Assembly (NCBI RefSeq): GCF_000473165.1
Contig: NZ_KI421504.1
Span: 3,200,094 to 3,264,093 of the forward strand
DNA from: Leisingera aquimarina DSM 24565
GTDB lineage: Bacteria; Pseudomonadota; Alphaproteobacteria; Rhodobacterales; Rhodobacteraceae
Direction: 5' to 3'
Length of the DNA stretch: 64,000 nt
How positions within the stretch are numbered: the first letter of the stretch is position 1; the number at the start of each line of letters is the position of its first letter. The notes under the pieces are model-generated. The model was not told the origin of the DNA and ran no database searches. It worked only from the letters and a program-made list of their open reading frames with translations. The translations under genes were made by a program, and so were the position numbers. Below, piece after piece: positions 11,934 through 21,394 of this stretch.

Positions 11934-12242
11934 TCAGCGGGCGGGAGCCACTCCTGCGATACGGAGATGCCGCGCCAGTTCCCGCAGCACCAGCCGGGAG
12001 CAGTTGAGATAGACCGGATCATCCAGAAACGGCTCAGAGGCCAGATCAAACCTTCGTGCCGCGGCACTCAAACTCCCGTCGCCCCAGCGCGGGTGCAGGC
12101 GGCCTGTCAGCCCCGTATAAGCCGCTGCCTCCGACGCACCGCCAAAGATCCTACGGCACAGGCGCAGGCGGTCCGCATCCCGAACCGCCAGCAAGGCGCG
12201 CGCCACCGCCGACACATCTCCGGGCAGCACCGGGTGTATCAT
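11934..12242 (-). CDS. DUF7742 family protein, GTA-associated
   Basis: 102 residues starting MIHPVLPGDVSAVARALLAV. The start codon overlaps the g15 stop by 4 bp (ATGA), so it is the last gene of the GTA operon. The sequence is helical and Arg/Leu-rich with no membrane segment, and contains RCRRIFGG-like and LGHPRWGDGSL-like family segments. Genes of this family lie directly after g15 in many Rhodobacterales, but the function is unknown; involvement in GTA assembly or an unrelated role are both possible. An ATG further upstream in this frame (12359) would lie inside g15 and is unlikely. Confidence 0.7.
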   Translation of the reverse strand: MIHPVLPGDVSAVARALLAVRDADRLRLCRRIFGGASEAAAYTGLTGRLHPRWGDGSLSAAARRFDLASEPFLDDPVYLNCSRLVLRELARHLRIAGVAPAR

Positions 12243-15200
12243 CCCAGCAAAACCCGCGCCGCCGGTCCGGCGCCGAACCGCGCCGACCGCTGCGCCGCTT
12301 CCAGCACATCCCCCGCCTGCGCGCCATCTTCGGCCTGCGACACCGCCGGATAGGCCCATTCCGGCGTGGCAGAGGTTGCCTCCCGCAGCACCGTGGACCC
12401 GCGCATCACCCGGATGCGGTAGGATTCGCTCTCTTCACCCAGTGGCACCTCCTCCAGCTCCCAGCTGTCGCCCTCGATCCTTGTGCGGCGGATCCACGTC
12501 GCTCTCAAGTCACTGCCAAGCCCCCCGCCAAGGCGCAGATGCACCGGCGCATAGGGGCGCAGACCAATGCCCTCAAAACTCTCCTGCCGGTGCAGATAAG
12601 ACGGATCCTCCAGCGCCCGCCGTGCGGGCCCGATCCGGTAGTGCCGCAGCTGGCGCCGCTGTTCCGGCGCCAGCTCCATCTGCATCGGCGTGCCATCCAG
12701 CAGCACCACAAAAGATCCCGCAGGCCAGACCTCAGGCATCAGCGCATCACTGCCCTGCTGGCCGCGCAAACGGCCCCGCAGCAAATAGGTCTGCGGCGCG
12801 ATCAGCTCCGCCTCGCGGAACTGGAACAGCTCCCAATTGCCGGATGTGCCATCGCCGATCGCAGCGGCATTGGCGCCGTTCAGCACCGCCTCCGCCGTGC
12901 GGCTTTCCAAGGAACCGGAGATCAGCTTCACCTGCAGATCCGCGCCCAGATCCCAGCGCCCGGCCCCGGCGGCAAACAGCGGCGTTTCCGTGACGCCGAC
13001 CACCTGCCGCGCGGCAATCACCTGCTCCAGCGCGTAATTCTCATCCGCCCCGGAGCCGTAGACCGCAACGCTGCCGGGCCAGGCCGCCGCGGTCAGCGCC
13101 AGATGCGGCGCATGCGGCACCTCATCGCCGCGCATCAGCGGCAGATCCATGAACAGGGGCAGCACCGGCCCGGGGGCGGCAAAGGCATTGACCCCCGGCA
13201 GCTCCTCGGCCACTGCGGCCAGATCGTAGACGCCGGGTTCGATCCGAACCGCTTCGACCATCTGCGCCTCGGCCTGTTCCACCCGGTCAATGCGGTACAG
13301 CTGTTCGCCGTTTTCCACCGGCAGGGAGACCACATCCCCCGCCCCCAGATGCAGCATCGAGGGCGGCAGCGAGAACCGCGCCGCATCGCGCGAAATCCGC
13401 GCCTCTGCCAGCCAGCGGCTGACCACCTGACGCGCCTCGGCCCGGGTCAGCGCCAGCGGCAGCTCATTCTGGCTGACGCTATGTGTCGCCTCATCCGGCA
13501 GCACCGCCTCAACCGATCCGGCCGCATGATCGCCGCCCAATTCGGTGAACCGCAGCCGCACCCGGCCCGCCAGCTCCGCCTCGCCGGCACGGGCCAGCTC
13601 CAGGCTGCCGTCCATTTCCTCGCTCTCGGCCAGATGCTCCAGCTTCAGCGCCTTGGCCCCGCTGCCCTTGCGCATCCGGAACATCAGAACCCCGTCGCGT
13701 TCCACCGCGTCAAACCCGTGCCTCAGCATCAAGGGTTGCAGCACCGCGCGGGCGTCCGCGACATCCGGGTTCACATACCCATGCACCACGCCGTAAAGCC
13801 CGGTAACATCAATGTCGTAAAGCCCTGCCCTGTGGCACACTTCCTCCACCACAGAGGCCAGCGTGCGCTGCCCGGCGCGCCCGTTCAGCCAATGGCCGCG
13901 CAGGTAATTTTCGCCGTCGTTCCAGATCTCGATCCGGCTGGGAAAGACCGGAAACGGCCGCGCGTCCCAGGCCCAGACATAGGCGTTGGACATATCCAGC
14001 ATCCGCCCTCCGTATTCCTCTGACAGCGGATTGTTTGCCGCTTCGCCCCAATGGCCCAGAAACGCCCGCAGATAGGAAATCTGCATCAGATCGTCCCGCA
14101 ACCCGTTGGAATAACGCGGCAGTTTCGATTCCGAGCTTTTCGGGTCCAGAAACTTGTTGGGCTGATTGGTGCCCTTGTCGATGGCGGCGCAGCCAAGCTC
14201 GGTGAACCAGATGGGCTTAGACTGCGGCACCCACTCTGTCGGCACCGCCTGCCGCACCCCGCCGATACGCTGATGGTGGTCATTCATCCACCAGCTGCGG
14301 ATATCCTTATAGCGCCAGACCCAAGGTTCATCATGCGCACCATCGGTGATCGGGGTGCGGATCTGCGCTTCGCGGGCTTCGGAGGAGTGGTAATACCAGT
14401 CAAACCCCTCGCCGCCCTCGACATTGCTGCTGAGGTATTCGGGGTCATAGATCGCCGGCACGCCGGATTGCGCGTCCAGGTGATCCTCACCTTCACGCCA
14501 GTCGGACAGCGGCATGTAATTGTCGATGCCGATGAAGTCGATGTTTTCATCCGCCCACAGCGGGTCCAGATGGAAATAGCGGTCGCCCTCCGGCGACTTA
14601 TACCCCCAGTATTCCGACCAGTCGGCGGCATAGCCGATCTTGGTCCCCGCCCCCAGAAGCGCGCGCACCTCAGCTGCAAGTGCCTTCAGCATCTGAACCG
14701 CGGGAAAACCGCTGGCGCCGCGGATCTGCGTCAGCGCCCGCATCTCGGAGCTGATGCAGAAGGCCTCAACCCCGCCCGCCGCTGCACAAAGTGCAGCATT
14801 GTGCAGGATGAAGCGGCTGAGGCTCCACTCGTCCGGCCCCGTATAGGCCACGCTGCCGTCTCCCACGGTGAAATCCGCTGCGGTGACTGTACCAAAGAAC
14901 GCCGCGACCTCCGCCTCCGCTGCAGCGGTGCCATCGGGGGAACCGGCCTGCCCGGGAGCAGCTGACAACGTAATCCGTCCGCGCCAGGGCAGATGCGGCT
15001 GGCTGGCACCGCCGGTCCAGGGATCGGGCAGCACGTTGCCCTCTGCCTGATCCATCAGGATGAACGGATAAAACATCACCCGCAGGCCGCGGCCCTGCAT
15101 CTCTTGGATCGACTGGATCACCGAGGCATCCGCCGGGGTGCCGCCATAAAGCGGCTCGCCGTCTTCCTTCAAAACCTCCTCTGCCGCCGCGCGGGTGACG

Positions 15201-16153
15201 CCGCTGACGGACCAAGCCATGTTTCCTTCGGCATCCTTATGTTCCACCTTGGGCTTCAGCGTGCAGTCCCCGCACCGCAGATCGCCACCAAACCACGACA
15301 CAATCAAGGAAGCCGCACCGCAGGCCGGCAGCTCCGCCTCCAAGGCGTTCAGCGAGGTCTTGAGGTCGCTGAGACCCGAGGGCGTATGCTCATTGGCCGG
15401 CTTGGCATCCCCGGGCCCGCCGGAGTATTGCACCACATCCGCGGCCAGCGCGTACTCACCGGTGCCAGGCATCAGCGCCACCCCTTGCACCAGCTGGCCC
15501 AGGTCCAGAGCATGGGTGCTGCTGGCTGGTTGTTCGGGGCGCAGAACATCAAATGAAAACTGCGGCACCCGGTTGCCAAAACGCGCAAGGTCCAGGTTTT
15601 CCATCACCACATAAGCGGTGCCGCGGTAGGCGGGCACCTGCCCCGGCCCCTCAATCGCCTCCATCACCGGGTCGGGCAGCTGGTCCGCGGTGCCGCTATA
15701 AACGGTCATGTTCAAATCCTTCGGCGCCACTTCTTCGCCATCGGCCCAAACGCGGGCGACATGGGCCACCTCGCCCTCGCACAGCGCAACCGCCAATGAG
15801 ACGGAATAGCTGTAGCTCGTCACCTGCGGCTGGCTGGGACGTCCCTTGCCACCGCCGCCGCTGGTCTGGGAGGTTTCCAGAAACCGCGAGGTCCAGATCA
15901 CCTGCCCGCCCAGCCGCATCCGGCCATAGACCTGCGTCATGGGCGCACCCTCGCTGGCCTGGGTCAGGCGGAAGCGGTCAACTTTGCCGGTCTCCACCGG
16001 ATCGGCACCGCTGCCCAGCAGCCGCTCGTCAATCATCCGGCCCAGGGTAGCGCCGACCGCGCGGCCAATCACTGCCGAGGACAGCCCCGCCACGGTGCCG
16101 CCAATGGTGCCGCCAATCGCAGCACCCGCGGCAGAAATAAGAATGGTTGCCAT
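12239..16153 (-). CDS. GTA g15, baseplate megatron / host-interaction protein (TIM-barrel domain)
   Basis: 1304 residues, the largest protein of the GTA tail tip. The N-terminus is glycine- and alanine-rich and membrane-like (IGGTIGGTVAGLSSAVIGRA), followed by WTSRFLETSQTSGGGGKG. The middle holds a glycosidase-like TIM barrel, with IDFIGIDNYMPLSDWR and PIWFTELGCAA as recognisable strands. C-terminal beta-rich and fibronectin-like regions follow. In R. capsulatus this protein closes the tail tube and contacts the cell. Large antisense frames here (for example 12056-14023 on the plus strand) are compositional shadows. It is coupled to g14 with a shared base at 16153. Confidence 0.95.
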   Translation of the reverse strand: MATILISAAGAAIGGTIGGTVAGLSSAVIGRAVGATLGRMIDERLLGSGADPVETGKVDRFRLTQASEGAPMTQVYGRMRLGGQVIWTSRFLETSQTSGGGGKGRPSQPQVTSYSYSVSLAVALCEGEVAHVARVWADGEEVAPKDLNMTVYSGTADQLPDPVMEAIEGPGQVPAYRGTAYVVMENLDLARFGNRVPQFSFDVLRPEQPASSTHALDLGQLVQGVALMPGTGEYALAADVVQYSGGPGDAKPANEHTPSGLSDLKTSLNALEAELPACGAASLIVSWFGGDLRCGDCTLKPKVEHKDAEGNMAWSVSGVTRAAAEEVLKEDGEPLYGGTPADASVIQSIQEMQGRGLRVMFYPFILMDQAEGNVLPDPWTGGASQPHLPWRGRITLSAAPGQAGSPDGTAAAEAEVAAFFGTVTAADFTVGDGSVAYTGPDEWSLSRFILHNAALCAAAGGVEAFCISSEMRALTQIRGASGFPAVQMLKALAAEVRALLGAGTKIGYAADWSEYWGYKSPEGDRYFHLDPLWADENIDFIGIDNYMPLSDWREGEDHLDAQSGVPAIYDPEYLSSNVEGGEGFDWYYHSSEAREAQIRTPITDGAHDEPWVWRYKDIRSWWMNDHHQRIGGVRQAVPTEWVPQSKPIWFTELGCAAIDKGTNQPNKFLDPKSSESKLPRYSNGLRDDLMQISYLRAFLGHWGEAANNPLSEEYGGRMLDMSNAYVWAWDARPFPVFPSRIEIWNDGENYLRGHWLNGRAGQRTLASVVEEVCHRAGLYDIDVTGLYGVVHGYVNPDVADARAVLQPLMLRHGFDAVERDGVLMFRMRKGSGAKALKLEHLAESEEMDGSLELARAGEAELAGRVRLRFTELGGDHAAGSVEAVLPDEATHSVSQNELPLALTRAEARQVVSRWLAEARISRDAARFSLPPSMLHLGAGDVVSLPVENGEQLYRIDRVEQAEAQMVEAVRIEPGVYDLAAVAEELPGVNAFAAPGPVLPLFMDLPLMRGDEVPHAPHLALTAAAWPGSVAVYGSGADENYALEQVIAARQVVGVTETPLFAAGAGRWDLGADLQVKLISGSLESRTAEAVLNGANAAAIGDGTSGNWELFQFREAELIAPQTYLLRGRLRGQQGSDALMPEVWPAGSFVVLLDGTPMQMELAPEQRRQLRHYRIGPARRALEDPSYLHRQESFEGIGLRPYAPVHLRLGGGLGSDLRATWIRRTRIEGDSWELEEVPLGEESESYRIRVMRGSTVLREATSATPEWAYPAVSQAEDGAQAGDVLEAAQRSARFGAGPAARVLLG

Positions 16154-16707
16154 CAGATCAGCTCCTTCGGGAAGTGAAACCGCGCCACGATGCGGCGCTG
16201 CCAGGGCGGACTCAGCGGGCTTTCGACAACCCCGTGGCCGGCATAGGCGTGGATAAAGGCGGGGCCATCGCTTGCCTGTCCCGCCTGGCCGAAGGCCAGG
16301 CAGCGTCCGTCCGCCCCCGTCCCGTCAGTGGATGACGGCTGGCGCTTCTCGCCCAGCCGTGGCCGGACGCTGCCCTCGCCGGTTTGAATGCTAGTTTCGG
16401 ACTGCACCCCCAGATGCTTGGCCACCGATCCCTCGCGCATCCGGAACAGGATCACATCTCCTGCAGCTGCTTCCTCCAGCGGCTTTGCCACCAGATGCCG
16501 CGCCGCGGCCTGCCACAGTGCCTCGGCCCCCTGCGGTTCCGACCAGTCCATCGTATAGGCAGGCGGCGCTTCGGGTTCGGACCCGTACAGCTCCCGCCAC
16601 AGGCCCCGGATCAGGCCCAGGCAGTCGCAGCCCGCCCCCTGGCAGCAGGCCTGATGCACATAGGGCGTGCCGATCCAGCCCCGCGCCGCTGTCACCACCC
16701 GGATCAT
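16153..16707 (-). CDS. GTA g14, NlpC/P60-type cell-wall peptidase, with in-frame insertion
   Basis: 184 residues, about 40 longer than typical g14 proteins. The NlpC/P60 catalytic Cys lies in QGAGCDCLGLIRGLWRE and the His in FIHAYAGHGVVESPL. The enzyme is expected to cut peptidoglycan during DNA entry. Between AKHLGVQ and GPAFIHAY, where homologues run almost directly on, is an extra segment rich in Gly, Ser, Arg and Gln. It is encoded by a DNA element built of nested palindromes (16283-16374). The frame is kept, so a functional protein with a surface loop is possible. Its start overlaps g13 by 4 bp. Confidence 0.92.
   Translation of the reverse strand: MIRVVTAARGWIGTPYVHQACCQGAGCDCLGLIRGLWRELYGSEPEAPPAYTMDWSEPQGAEALWQAAARHLVAKPLEEAAAGDVILFRMREGSVAKHLGVQSETSIQTGEGSVRPRLGEKRQPSSTDGTGADGRCLAFGQAGQASDGPAFIHAYAGHGVVESPLSPPWQRRIVARFHFPKELI
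16283..16374. repeat. Multi-stem palindromic element inserted in frame in GTA g14
   Basis: Perfect hairpin GCCTGGCC-GAA-GGCCAGGC (16283-16301), then perfect 11-bp outer arms GGCAGCGTCCG (16299-16309) and CGGACGCTGCC (16364-16374). These enclose two further hairpins, CCGTCA/TGACGG (16322-16338) and GGCTGG/CCAGCC (16337-16358). The result is a cloverleaf-like fold that coincides with the extra residues of the g14 protein. Confidence 0.75.
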
Positions 16708-17591
16708 CGCCTGCTCCCGCCGGTGTTCATACCGGACTGGCGCGGCACCGCCATCACCCAGTCCTCGCCCGGAATATCGGGGAAGCCCTGGAAATTCAGC
16801 AGGTTATTGAACTTCAGCCGGCAGGTCTCCATGCGTCTGTCGCAACCGGCCTCCAGCCGGACCGTGTCACCCGGCGCCACTGCCGCGCGGATCGGTTCCC
16901 ACAGGGTGATCCGGCGCCCGTCGGCCTTGGCTTGATCCGCCTTCACGGCGGCCCACAATCCCGCAGCCGGACCGCTCAGCACCGACAGCCGCCCGCCGGT
17001 GAACCAATCCGGCTCAAACCCCGGCAATGCCTCCCAGCGGAACACTTCATTGCGTTCCACGCTTTCAGCATCCAGTTCCACGGCATAACCCGGCGTCTGC
17101 ATGTCAAACCGGCAGGCGGTATCGCCCAGCACCGCCGTGCAGGGCTTCTGATAGATCCGCCCCAGCGGCTGGTTCAGCGTCTCGGTCAGCCCGCGCAGCT
17201 CTGCCTCAAAAGCGCCGCCCGCGCGGCGGATCTCGCCGATGGAGCCGCGGAACTGCAGCCAGCGCATCGAGACATCCTGCCAGTTGACCAGCCAGCAGCG
17301 CACCTCGGCGCCGTCAAAGCGGCCTGCCTCGATATCCTCCTCGCGCACGGCAGCGTCGCTCAGCACCCCCAGCGCCTCGGTGTTGTCGACCGAGAGGCCA
17401 GTGGCCTGTTGCACCGCCCGCGCGGTCAACCCGCTGCCGGGCTGAAAGTCGACGCCATCAAACGACAGCACGCAGTCGTGATCAGTGAAGCCCAGCACGG
17501 TTCCATCGCGCCGTTCCAAGGCCCAACAGCGGCAGACAGTTGTGATGCCTGACTGAAGATGGTTCTGCAACTCCTTGGAAAGACTACTCAT
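16704..17591 (-). CDS. GTA g13, tail hub protein (DUF2163 family)
   Basis: 295 residues with the DUF2163 start (VCRCWALERRDGTVLGFTDHD) and the cysteine-containing C-terminal domain (EAGCDRRMETCRLKFNNLLNFQGFPDIPGEDW). In the R. capsulatus GTA structure this protein forms the hub of the tail tip, and its cysteines bind a metal cluster; the same CDRRMETC and upstream DTACRF cysteines are visible here. Four-base overlaps with g12 and g14 indicate coupled translation. Confidence 0.93.
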   Translation of the reverse strand: MSSLSKELQNHLQSGITTVCRCWALERRDGTVLGFTDHDCVLSFDGVDFQPGSGLTARAVQQATGLSVDNTEALGVLSDAAVREEDIEAGRFDGAEVRCWLVNWQDVSMRWLQFRGSIGEIRRAGGAFEAELRGLTETLNQPLGRIYQKPCTAVLGDTACRFDMQTPGYAVELDAESVERNEVFRWEALPGFEPDWFTGGRLSVLSGPAAGLWAAVKADQAKADGRRITLWEPIRAAVAPGDTVRLEAGCDRRMETCRLKFNNLLNFQGFPDIPGEDWVMAVPRQSGMNTGGSRR

Positions 17592-20292: not shown

Positions 20293-20621
20293 CCGCTCAC
20301 CTCCTCAACCGCAAAACAGGTGAGGCAGCGGGCGTCCGGATCAGATTCCGCAACTGCATCAATGCGGTACAGCCTGTTGATGTCGCGGAAACGCTGGTCC
20401 GGACGCGGGCGGGATGCAAAACCTTCAGGTGCGGCACGCAGGGTGATCCGGTATTTCTGCAAAGACAGGCCATCGCCGCTCAGGCGGCCGCTCAGGGGCT
20501 TCACTTCAGCCCAGAGGGTGCCAAGCGCCACCCAGGTTTCCGTAAAACCGCCGGCGCCGTCGGAGCTGCGCTGGGGGTCTTCCAGCACCAGCTTGCGGGT
20601 GAGTTTCGGGGGGCGCTTCAT
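20289..20621 (-). CDS. GTA g7, head closure / stopper protein
   Basis: 110 residues starting MKRPPKLTRKLVLEDPQRSSDGAGGF and containing WVALGTLWAEVKPLSGR, the family core of head-tail closure proteins (shown in parts). The ATG at 20621 overlaps the g6 stop (ATGA). An extension to 20786 in the same frame would run inside g6 and is rejected. Confidence 0.92.
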   Translation of the reverse strand: MKRPPKLTRKLVLEDPQRSSDGAGGFTETWVALGTLWAEVKPLSGRLSGDGLSLQKYRITLRAAPEGFASRPRPDQRFRDINRLYRIDAVAESDPDARCLTCFAVEEVSG

Positions 20622-21220
20622 GCCAGGCCTCCCAAGGTCAGCCGCAGGCTGCGGTAGCGTTCGATCAGGCTGGTGACGCCAAACGGCATGCAGCCGCCAT
20701 GCAGCCCGGTGTCGGCCCGGTATTCGTAGTAATGCGCAGCCAGCAGCATCACTGCCTGGCCCAAATCGGCGGGTAAGCCGCCCCAATCCGCGGCCATGCC
20801 GGCCTGCAGGGAAATCCGCACCAGACCGCCTGCCGGGATTGCGGGCAGCAGGCTGCCGGCCGGACGCAGGCGCCGGCGCTGGCTGTCGCGCTCCAGGTGA
20901 TAAAGAGTGGCGTCCAGAACGGTTTCGGTGCCGCCTGCGTCGCGCATCACAACCCCGGATACCGCCTGCACAGGGGCGATGGGCAGGATCATCTGCACTC
21001 GGTCGCGCCAGTGGCGGATTTCCAGTTCAAACTCGCGTGCAATCAGCGCCTTGCCGGTCCTTGCCTCAATTGCAGCCAGGGCGGCGCGCAGAAAGCCAAA
21101 CAGCACCTCGTCCTGCAGGCTGTCCTCGCCAAAGCCGGTGCCCAGACGCAGATGCGCCTTGAACTGGGCCAGCGGCAGGGCGGCCTCGGGCACGGGTGTC
21201 ACTTCGCTCAGCATCATCAT
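20618..21220 (-). CDS. GTA g6, head-tail connector (adaptor)
   Basis: 200 residues with the gp6-like connector core: LAQFKAHLRLGTGFGEDSLQDE, then FLRAALAAIEARTGKAL and a C-terminal LGQAVMLLAAHYYEYRAD helix. It binds below the portal ring. The start is the first of three consecutive ATG codons at 21220, with AGGAG four bases upstream. Upstream frame extension goes into a structured non-coding gap. Confidence 0.92.
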   Translation of the reverse strand: MMMLSEVTPVPEAALPLAQFKAHLRLGTGFGEDSLQDEVLFGFLRAALAAIEARTGKALIAREFELEIRHWRDRVQMILPIAPVQAVSGVVMRDAGGTETVLDATLYHLERDSQRRRLRPAGSLLPAIPAGGLVRISLQAGMAADWGGLPADLGQAVMLLAAHYYEYRADTGLHGGCMPFGVTSLIERYRSLRLTLGGLA

Positions 21221-21394
21221 CTTACTCCTGCGGGCCTTCCCCTGTTGCGGCCCTGATCTGCTGTCCGGGTGGGGTTCGGCGGGCATGCACCATCCCTTGC
21301 CGCTCGGACGGAGGGGAGCAGCTGGACGGCAAAGGACTGTGGGGTGCATGCCCGCCGGCGGACCGGTCTGCCGGTCCGCCATCAGCGCAAAGCG
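21221..21394. repeat. Structured element in the g5-g6 gap of the GTA cluster
   Basis: Perfect 14-bp inverted arms GGCGGGCATGCACC (21278-21291) and GGTGCATGCCCGCC (21343-21356) enclose 51 nt, in which CCCTTGCCG can pair with CGGCAAAGG. Directly adjacent is a perfect hairpin GGCGGACCGG-TCTG-CCGGTCCGCC (21357-21380). There is no U-run on the transcribed strand, so it is not a simple terminator. It lies between the capsid and connector genes. Confidence 0.65.

Follow-up and report, generated by a model that had tools for sequence, protein, structure and literature searches.

A dispersed palindromic repeat in frame within the gene transfer agent peptidase gene g14 of Leisingera

The g14 gene and its palindromic segment

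We analysed a 64,000-nucleotide stretch of the genome of Leisingera aquimarina DSM 24565 (contig NZ_KI421504.1, positions 3,200,094 to 3,264,093; hereafter the window), in which g14, the gene for a cell-wall peptidase of a gene transfer agent (GTA), carries a palindromic segment that enlarges one loop of the encoded protein. We conclude with considerable confidence that this segment represents a copy of a palindromic repeat that is non-autonomous and similar to repetitive extragenic palindromes (REPs) and miniature inverted-repeat transposable elements (MITEs), and that this copy entered g14, was tolerated there and has changed since. The features of the locus are listed below (the covariance model R1 is described in the next section).

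16283–16376, + strand (the element's own orientation, antisense to g14): palindromic repeat element (cmsearch with R1, 39.3 bits, E 8.2e-6 in the window)
16283–16301, + strand: hairpin A (arms 16283–16290 / 16294–16301; 8 bp, perfect)
16299–16374, + strand: long hairpin B (outer arms 16299–16312 / 16361–16374; inverted-repeat scan)
16335–16360, + strand: inner stem ACGGCTGG / CCAGCCGT (16335–16342 / 16353–16360; 8 bp, perfect)
16261–16401, − strand: enlarged g14 loop (47 codons), comprising the element and short non-element flanks
16153–16707, − strand: g14, NlpC/P60 GTA cell-wall peptidase (rcc01697-like; 184 aa; TIGR02219, 175 bits)
16704–17591, − strand: g13, GTA baseplate hub (TIGR02218, 329.5 bits)
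12239–16153, − strand: g15, GTA megatron (NF048004, 1914.7 bits)

The TIGR02219 score of the g14 protein exceeds the curated cut-off (81.9 bits), its Pfam NLPC_P60 match (22.2 bits) falls slightly below the cut-off of 23, and g14 overlaps the neighbouring open reading frames (ORFs) by 1 and 4 nt. A previous reading of the sequence alone had described the protein as about 40 residues longer than its relatives, with the frame kept, and both points are borne out: the loop between KHLGVQ and FIHAY comprises 47 residues (48 when the residue preceding FIHAY is counted) versus the usual 8, and the reading frame stays open through the inserted segment. The core of g14 is under purifying selection, as the ratio of non-synonymous to synonymous substitution rates (dN/dS) has a median of 0.135 (210 pairs from 21 genomes of the genus), and the inserted segment is the least conserved portion of the protein. 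In the best AlphaFold2 model (49 sequences; mean predicted local distance difference test, pLDDT, of 73, the other four models reaching 62–64), the insert is placed between the strands 98–104 and 150–155, and the pLDDT block means of residues 111–150 are 47, 51, 40 and 61; residues 15–21 likewise have a pLDDT below 50. Judging from this model, the insert most likely forms a flexible protrusion at a beta turn. The two strands that flank it bear conserved histidine motifs, which we take to be the catalytic ones of the NlpC/P60 fold. No solved structure matched g14 at E≤0.001.

The nested palindrome of the sequence-only reading stands in part. Its 8-bp hairpin and the 11-bp arms of hairpin B (16299–16309 / 16364–16374) are perfect, the latter being 93% matched when lengthened to 14 nt; of the two inner stems proposed, one is perfect and the second is only weakly predicted. 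RNA folding of 111 nt of the segment, as that reading had suggested, gave z-scores of −2.6 for the coding strand and −3.5 for the other strand. Taken alone, the palindrome is weak evidence, because perfect 11-bp inverted repeats are frequent in the window: 25 overlapping pairs at most 90 nt apart were counted (shuffled sequences: mean 2.8, maximum 10), seven of which lie in the GTA part, where at least one such pair was present in 39 of 100 shuffles. What raises the g14 segment above chance is its kinship to dispersed repeats, as it scores 39.3 bits with a model that excludes the g14 copy; on this ground we rejected a chance palindrome, in spite of the frequency of inverted repeats.

Elsewhere in the window, a perfect 15-bp inverted repeat (21277–21291 / 21343–21357, with 51 nt between the arms), which is not an R1 match, sits at the start of the ORF 20618–21382, directly downstream of the GTA capsid gene.

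Structure and distribution of the repeat family

A whole-genome DNA search with the element returned a cluster of short matches covering one part of it. The copies have a common architecture, a GCCTGGCC..GGCCAGGC hairpin followed by GGGCAGCGCCCG ... CGGGCGCTGCCC. The repeat consists of a short and then a long hairpin and measures about 80 bp; copies that contain an internal hairpin module of 27 bp reach about 107 bp. Two covariance models were built, R1 from six copies of this genome (g14 left out, the pbpC copy included) and R2 from 20 copies, without g14 and including this genome's pabB and pbpC copies. The search for further copies proposed by the sequence-only reading was positive: in the L. 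aquimarina genome (5.34 Mb), R1 found 27 places at E≤0.01, the g14 copy being among these with an E-value of 6.8e-4 genome-wide.

Base pairing was examined in the 20 dispersed copies, using pairs that were picked with the sequences in view, which biases the covariation result toward structure. The outer stem is paired in 83.6% of cells, and 8 of its 15 pairs changed on both sides (none of 500 shuffles was as high, and all six slid controls were lower). Hairpin A is paired at 84.3%, with changes on both sides in four of its eight pairs; four of 500 shuffles matched this count, and one slid version had five such pairs at 24.5% pairing. RNAalifold, run on the same 20-copy alignment, returned a different, shorter set of pairs.

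The copies also vary in their composition. Internal hairpin modules of two sorts, about 27–30 nt in length, occur at different sites (loci L056, L059, L064, L070, L073, L074 and L078) and look as if they had been exchanged between copies. Alongside the long form of the element there is a short one that has just one long hairpin (GGGCAGCGCCC..GGGCGCTGCCCTC; L060, L067 and L068). A known Rfam RNA was ruled out, since nine loci of 3 kb gave three matches at E≤1, each below its gathering score. One of them, to nadA (21.9 of 37.5 bits, E 0.83), overlaps hairpin A in g14. At another locus (L014, 2257–2390), the sub-threshold match to the Rickettsia small RNA Rp_sR47 (35.8 of 60 bits, E 5.9e-6) lies apart from the element copy.

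The repeat is present throughout the genus. With no more than 150 candidates scored per genome, R2 matched in 21 of 21 Leisingera genomes (17–57 matches each at E≤0.01); in the family, at E≤0.001 and with stricter filters, it matched in 79 of 149 genomes, our own counted. Of 24 named genomes, 14 had matches and 10 had none, which argues that R2 does not merely detect GC-rich hairpins. The 14 include Parasedimentitalea denitrificans (57 matches), a Rhodobacteraceae metagenome-assembled genome (MAG; DT_103; 32) and Phaeobacter italicus (11). Among plasmids, blastn matched 68 of 72,556 records (Phaeobacter, 36; Leisingera, 27; Tritonibacter, 2; Paroceanicella, 2; Ruegeria, 1), and a blastn search of a phage collection gave no element match. 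In a pair of L. aquaemixtae plasmids, each about 175.5 kb long (L304–L311), one bears five copies and the other three, with three in common. One of the unshared copies lies 3' of a doc-type toxin gene, and in its place the other plasmid carries an unrelated spacer that, as seen by eye, contains an inverted repeat of its own.

Gene positions of the copies were obtained with a simple codon-usage gene finder. Of the 27 copies of L. aquimarina, 23 lie outside ORFs, namely 15 between unidirectional genes, 7 between convergent and 1 between divergent genes; the four within ORFs are in g14, pabB, pbpC and one doubtful ORF (L071), which we discounted as a carrier gene (coding score 0.06 per codon). 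Similarly, of the best 30 of 54 copies in the genome G003, 27 are outside ORFs (14 between unidirectional, 9 between convergent and 4 between divergent genes) and three are within xdhC, pabB and pbpC, the last set by hand. The median distance of the copies to gene 3' ends is 13 nt in L. aquimarina and 12 nt among these 30 of G003.

In-frame copies and their variation among relatives

Very probably, the element lies in frame inside at least three genes besides g14, so that the in-frame insertion known from Rickettsia palindromic elements (RPEs), to which the sequence-only reading had likened the segment, recurs here. In pabB (NF005698, 553.8 bits) it encodes the peptide GIARPRGGEYRPP..ADGRCPAY, nearly the same peptide is encoded near the N-terminus of pbpC (TIGR02073), and the g14 copy encodes GSVRPRLGEKRQP..ADGRCLAF. 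These three copies are antisense to the element's defined orientation, and the copy in xdhC (TIGR02964; plasmid-borne, also in G003) is in the sense orientation. The sequences show an open in-frame position in g14, pabB and xdhC, and in pbpC too if its inferred start is right.

R2, itself built partly on the pabB and pbpC copies of this genome, recognises the element in 16 of 21 pabB loci of the genus, the remaining five having shortened inserts, in 21 of 21 pbpC loci, and in none of 11 outgroup pabB loci. The pabB inserts are readable in 20 of 20 loci, the 21st being cut by a contig end. Those of pbpC are readable by pattern in 15 of 21 loci; as the pbpC start was inferred from the overlap with the upstream stop and the insert is near the N-terminus, translation through it is likely, not proven. 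The filled form of xdhC, which contains the element, occurs in G003, one L. aquaemixtae and three L. caerulea strains (S185, S122 and M561); the empty form occurs in L. caerulea S141, L. sp. S132, L. methylohalidivorans and Pseudosulfitobacter (species names as given in the records), so that strains of the same name differ. Relative to the empty allele, the filled one has 114 or 108 additional bp and stays in frame; by match length, 17 Leisingera plasmid records comprise eight long and nine short forms.

The g14 gene is present in 21 of 21 genomes of the genus, with loops of 14–51 residues (15–52 counting the residue before FIHAY). We compared 80 named g14 loci: 13 of the Leisingera group (15–52 residues), Parasedimentitalea (40), one MAG (13) and 65 others, 62 of which have a loop of exactly 8 residues, and one each a loop of 4, 12 and 19. 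At the g14 loop, R2 matched 12 of 21 Leisingera loci at E≤2e-4, a 13th at 0.064 and Parasedimentitalea at 2.5e-12, and gave no match at E≤1 in the 66 other loci. The alignment of relatives called for by the sequence-only reading thus finds the same element, not unrelated DNA, in 13 of the 21 close loci. Among the contigs examined, two titled Nocardioides marinus and Enemella evansiae (L117 and L150) bear typical Rhodobacterales GTA genes and are probably mislabelled.

By eye, the g14 copy is read in two frames, GAG GGC AGC or variants of it in G000, G004, G006, G007 and G016 (a shortened copy in G016), and an AGG GCN GCN-like frame in most other loci. Presence or absence of the internal 27-bp hairpin (nine codons) distinguishes the two loop lengths of 126 and 153 nt in g14, and of 123 and 150 nt in pabB. 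A tree was built from 25 g13–g15 stretches after excision of the loop, and 13 of its 22 inner branches are well supported; the frames and variants of the loop lie scattered over it. In G004, the flanks are 91–98% identical to those of its close relative G001, as compared to 52% for the first 26 loop bases, which are 92% identical (24 of 26 nt, non-element flank) to those of the distant G000. These sequences suggest that g14 loop alleles have been exchanged between species, the alternative being conversion by other copies.

Origin of the g14 segment and its significance

From the kinship of the g14 segment to the dispersed repeats, we propose the following course of events. In an ancestor shared by Leisingera and Parasedimentitalea, a copy, possibly moved in trans by a separate enzyme, would have entered g14 once, landing at the turn that joins the two strands bearing the conserved histidine motifs. 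Because the repeat is GC-rich and often stop-free, and a suitable length keeps the frame, such a copy can persist as a disordered loop, with the enzyme core still under purifying selection. Later, the loop would have lost parts, gained the 27-bp module, changed frame and, apparently, been exchanged between species. Tolerance rather than benefit is what we favour, a tolerated passenger being the simplest account.

Several observations weigh against this proposal. First, no mobilising enzyme was found among the three Y1 transposases of the genome (L081–L083), which have no element match within 1.5 kb. Second, the filled xdhC site shows neither a target-site duplication nor clean ends when compared with the empty one; about 30 nt of non-element sequence stand ahead of the element, and about 25 nt after it are unlike the empty allele. 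Short non-element flanks occur in the g14 loops as well. Third, the unshared copies of the L. aquaemixtae plasmids, both in the same plasmid, correspond to a spacer swap at one site and to a degraded site at the other. Fourth, 8 of 21 Leisingera g14 loops are shorter and unrecognised by R2; these are called remnants by eye only, more clearly in G005 and G014 (where GAGGGCAGCGCCCGGC is left) than in G008 and G020. Fifth, single frames are stop-free in 32–49 of 53 dispersed copies (25 of L. aquimarina and 28 of G003, one of those in xdhC); an open frame is thus common and does not demonstrate that the insert is under coding selection. Sixth, the patchy frame states fit re-insertion or conversion as well as one entry.

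The last point leads to another explanation, in which, on several separate occasions within the genus, the g14 loop acted as a hotspot and either received a copy or had its sequence replaced through ectopic gene conversion from other copies; this we regard as possible, if rather unlikely. The two frames, the scattered gain of the module over the tree and the two arm types GGGCAGCG and GGGCTGCG with matching partners (by eye), the second of which is also found among dispersed copies (L078), speak for repeated entry. However, the recognised g14 copies share their site and orientation, most remnants, judged by eye, occupy that site as well, and the flank identity of G000 and G004 despite their distance on the tree points to transfer of an allele instead.

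We consider it improbable that the segment has been put to use, either by serving the peptidase or the GTA, or as an RNA hairpin that tunes the expression of the downstream g15 or the turnover of the GTA mRNA. Its persistence in many species and the arm pairing with compensating changes even within g14 (G001 and G018; by eye) speak for such a role; the 8 of 21 species that have shorter loops, the poor conservation of the segment relative to the rest of the protein and the low model confidence in this region, which suggests disorder, speak against it.

It is very improbable that the repeat belongs to a known REP class, tagged by GTAG or CGTC and moved by a REP-associated tyrosine transposase (RAYT). 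Its palindromes are dispersed near gene 3' ends, as described for REPs in PMC3733652, and two of the Y1 proteins have weak matches to REP_Tyr_transpos, below the cut-off. Nevertheless, these two pass the cut-off only as IS200 and are typed as such (the third is untyped because of an internal stop), and the distance of the three Y1 loci from any copy led us to reject a RAYT partner. Furthermore, a check of the 20 copies ruled out a tagged REP: a flanking GTAG occurs in none (its complement CTAC lies somewhere within four), a CGTC-like tag (CGTC/TGTC/CCTC) occurs in one, and none of the 20 has a stem with A/T at both first positions. Finally, an ordinary family loop that is palindromic by accident, to which the abundance of perfect 11-bp inverted repeats in the window could lend itself, is barely credible and was rejected in view of the R1 matches to dispersed copies, the same element in three other genes, its matches at 13 of 21 g14 loci and the 8-residue loops outside the group.

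The tolerated copy of a dispersed repeat is the account that we prefer. Its extension to a family that is still moving and regularly writes disordered in-frame segments, in both orientations and several frames, with GTA-peptidase loop alleles travelling between species, perhaps via the GTA itself, strikes us as speculative and rather unlikely.

The resemblance to RPEs is borne out in behaviour, there being many copies, some of them in frame within protein genes. Since the family lacks REP tags and a match at the Rfam threshold, and no RAYT partner was found for it, it works like an RPE as far as behaviour goes. Similarly to RPEs (Ogata et al. 2000, 2002), as these are presented in PMC10969869 and PMC3733652, the repeats are dispersed and palindromic and occur in frame within protein genes that are unrelated to one another; a peptide of similar sequence also recurs, here of the type G.xRPR.GE.RPP..ADGRCPA in g14, pabB and pbpC. 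Unlike RPEs, the Leisingera-group repeat is GC-rich, has a short and a long hairpin, uses both orientations and two frames, and has most of its copies outside genes. The GTAG/CGTC REPs are also said, in PMC3733652, to lie mostly between unidirectional or convergent genes near 3' ends, with some within ORFs, but these are tagged and 20–40 bp long, as compared to our untagged repeat of about 80–107 bp with two hairpins. The enterobacterial repeat unit (RU) and enterobacterial repetitive intergenic consensus (ERIC) elements, according to Delihas 2007 (PMC2759123), likewise add codons to ORFs as small repeats and are set apart by lineage and element; for the Leisingera repeat, the insertion sites were compared genus-wide, and those of g14, pabB and xdhC against outgroups as well. 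With regard to MITEs, outer arms are present in the repeat, and no duplication is seen at the filled/empty xdhC site.

In-frame REP-like inserts outside Rickettsia, in several REP-rich genomes, are reported in PMC3733652, the main text of which mentions none of Rhodobacter, Ruegeria, Roseobacter, Silicibacter, Dinoroseobacter, Paracoccus and Jannaschia. Our literature search, mostly outside subscription journals and not covering Leisingera/Phaeobacter genome papers, found no in-frame palindromic repeat described in Leisingera, in Rhodobacterales or in a GTA gene. Earlier, the title of a 2002 paper reportedly called such inserts unique to Rickettsia.

The present family occurs in free-living marine bacteria and offers four comparable insertion sites, outgroups in which the site is short or empty, copies in decay and a gene whose filled and empty forms both occur among strains of the same name; it can therefore be used to follow how mobile DNA adds segments to proteins and how these decay. 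In g14, the loop between two conserved histidine-bearing strands of a conserved GTA tail enzyme changes from one genome to another, with lengths of 15–52 residues. Much like RPEs, the repeat thus seems to extend functional proteins by segments that are tolerated.
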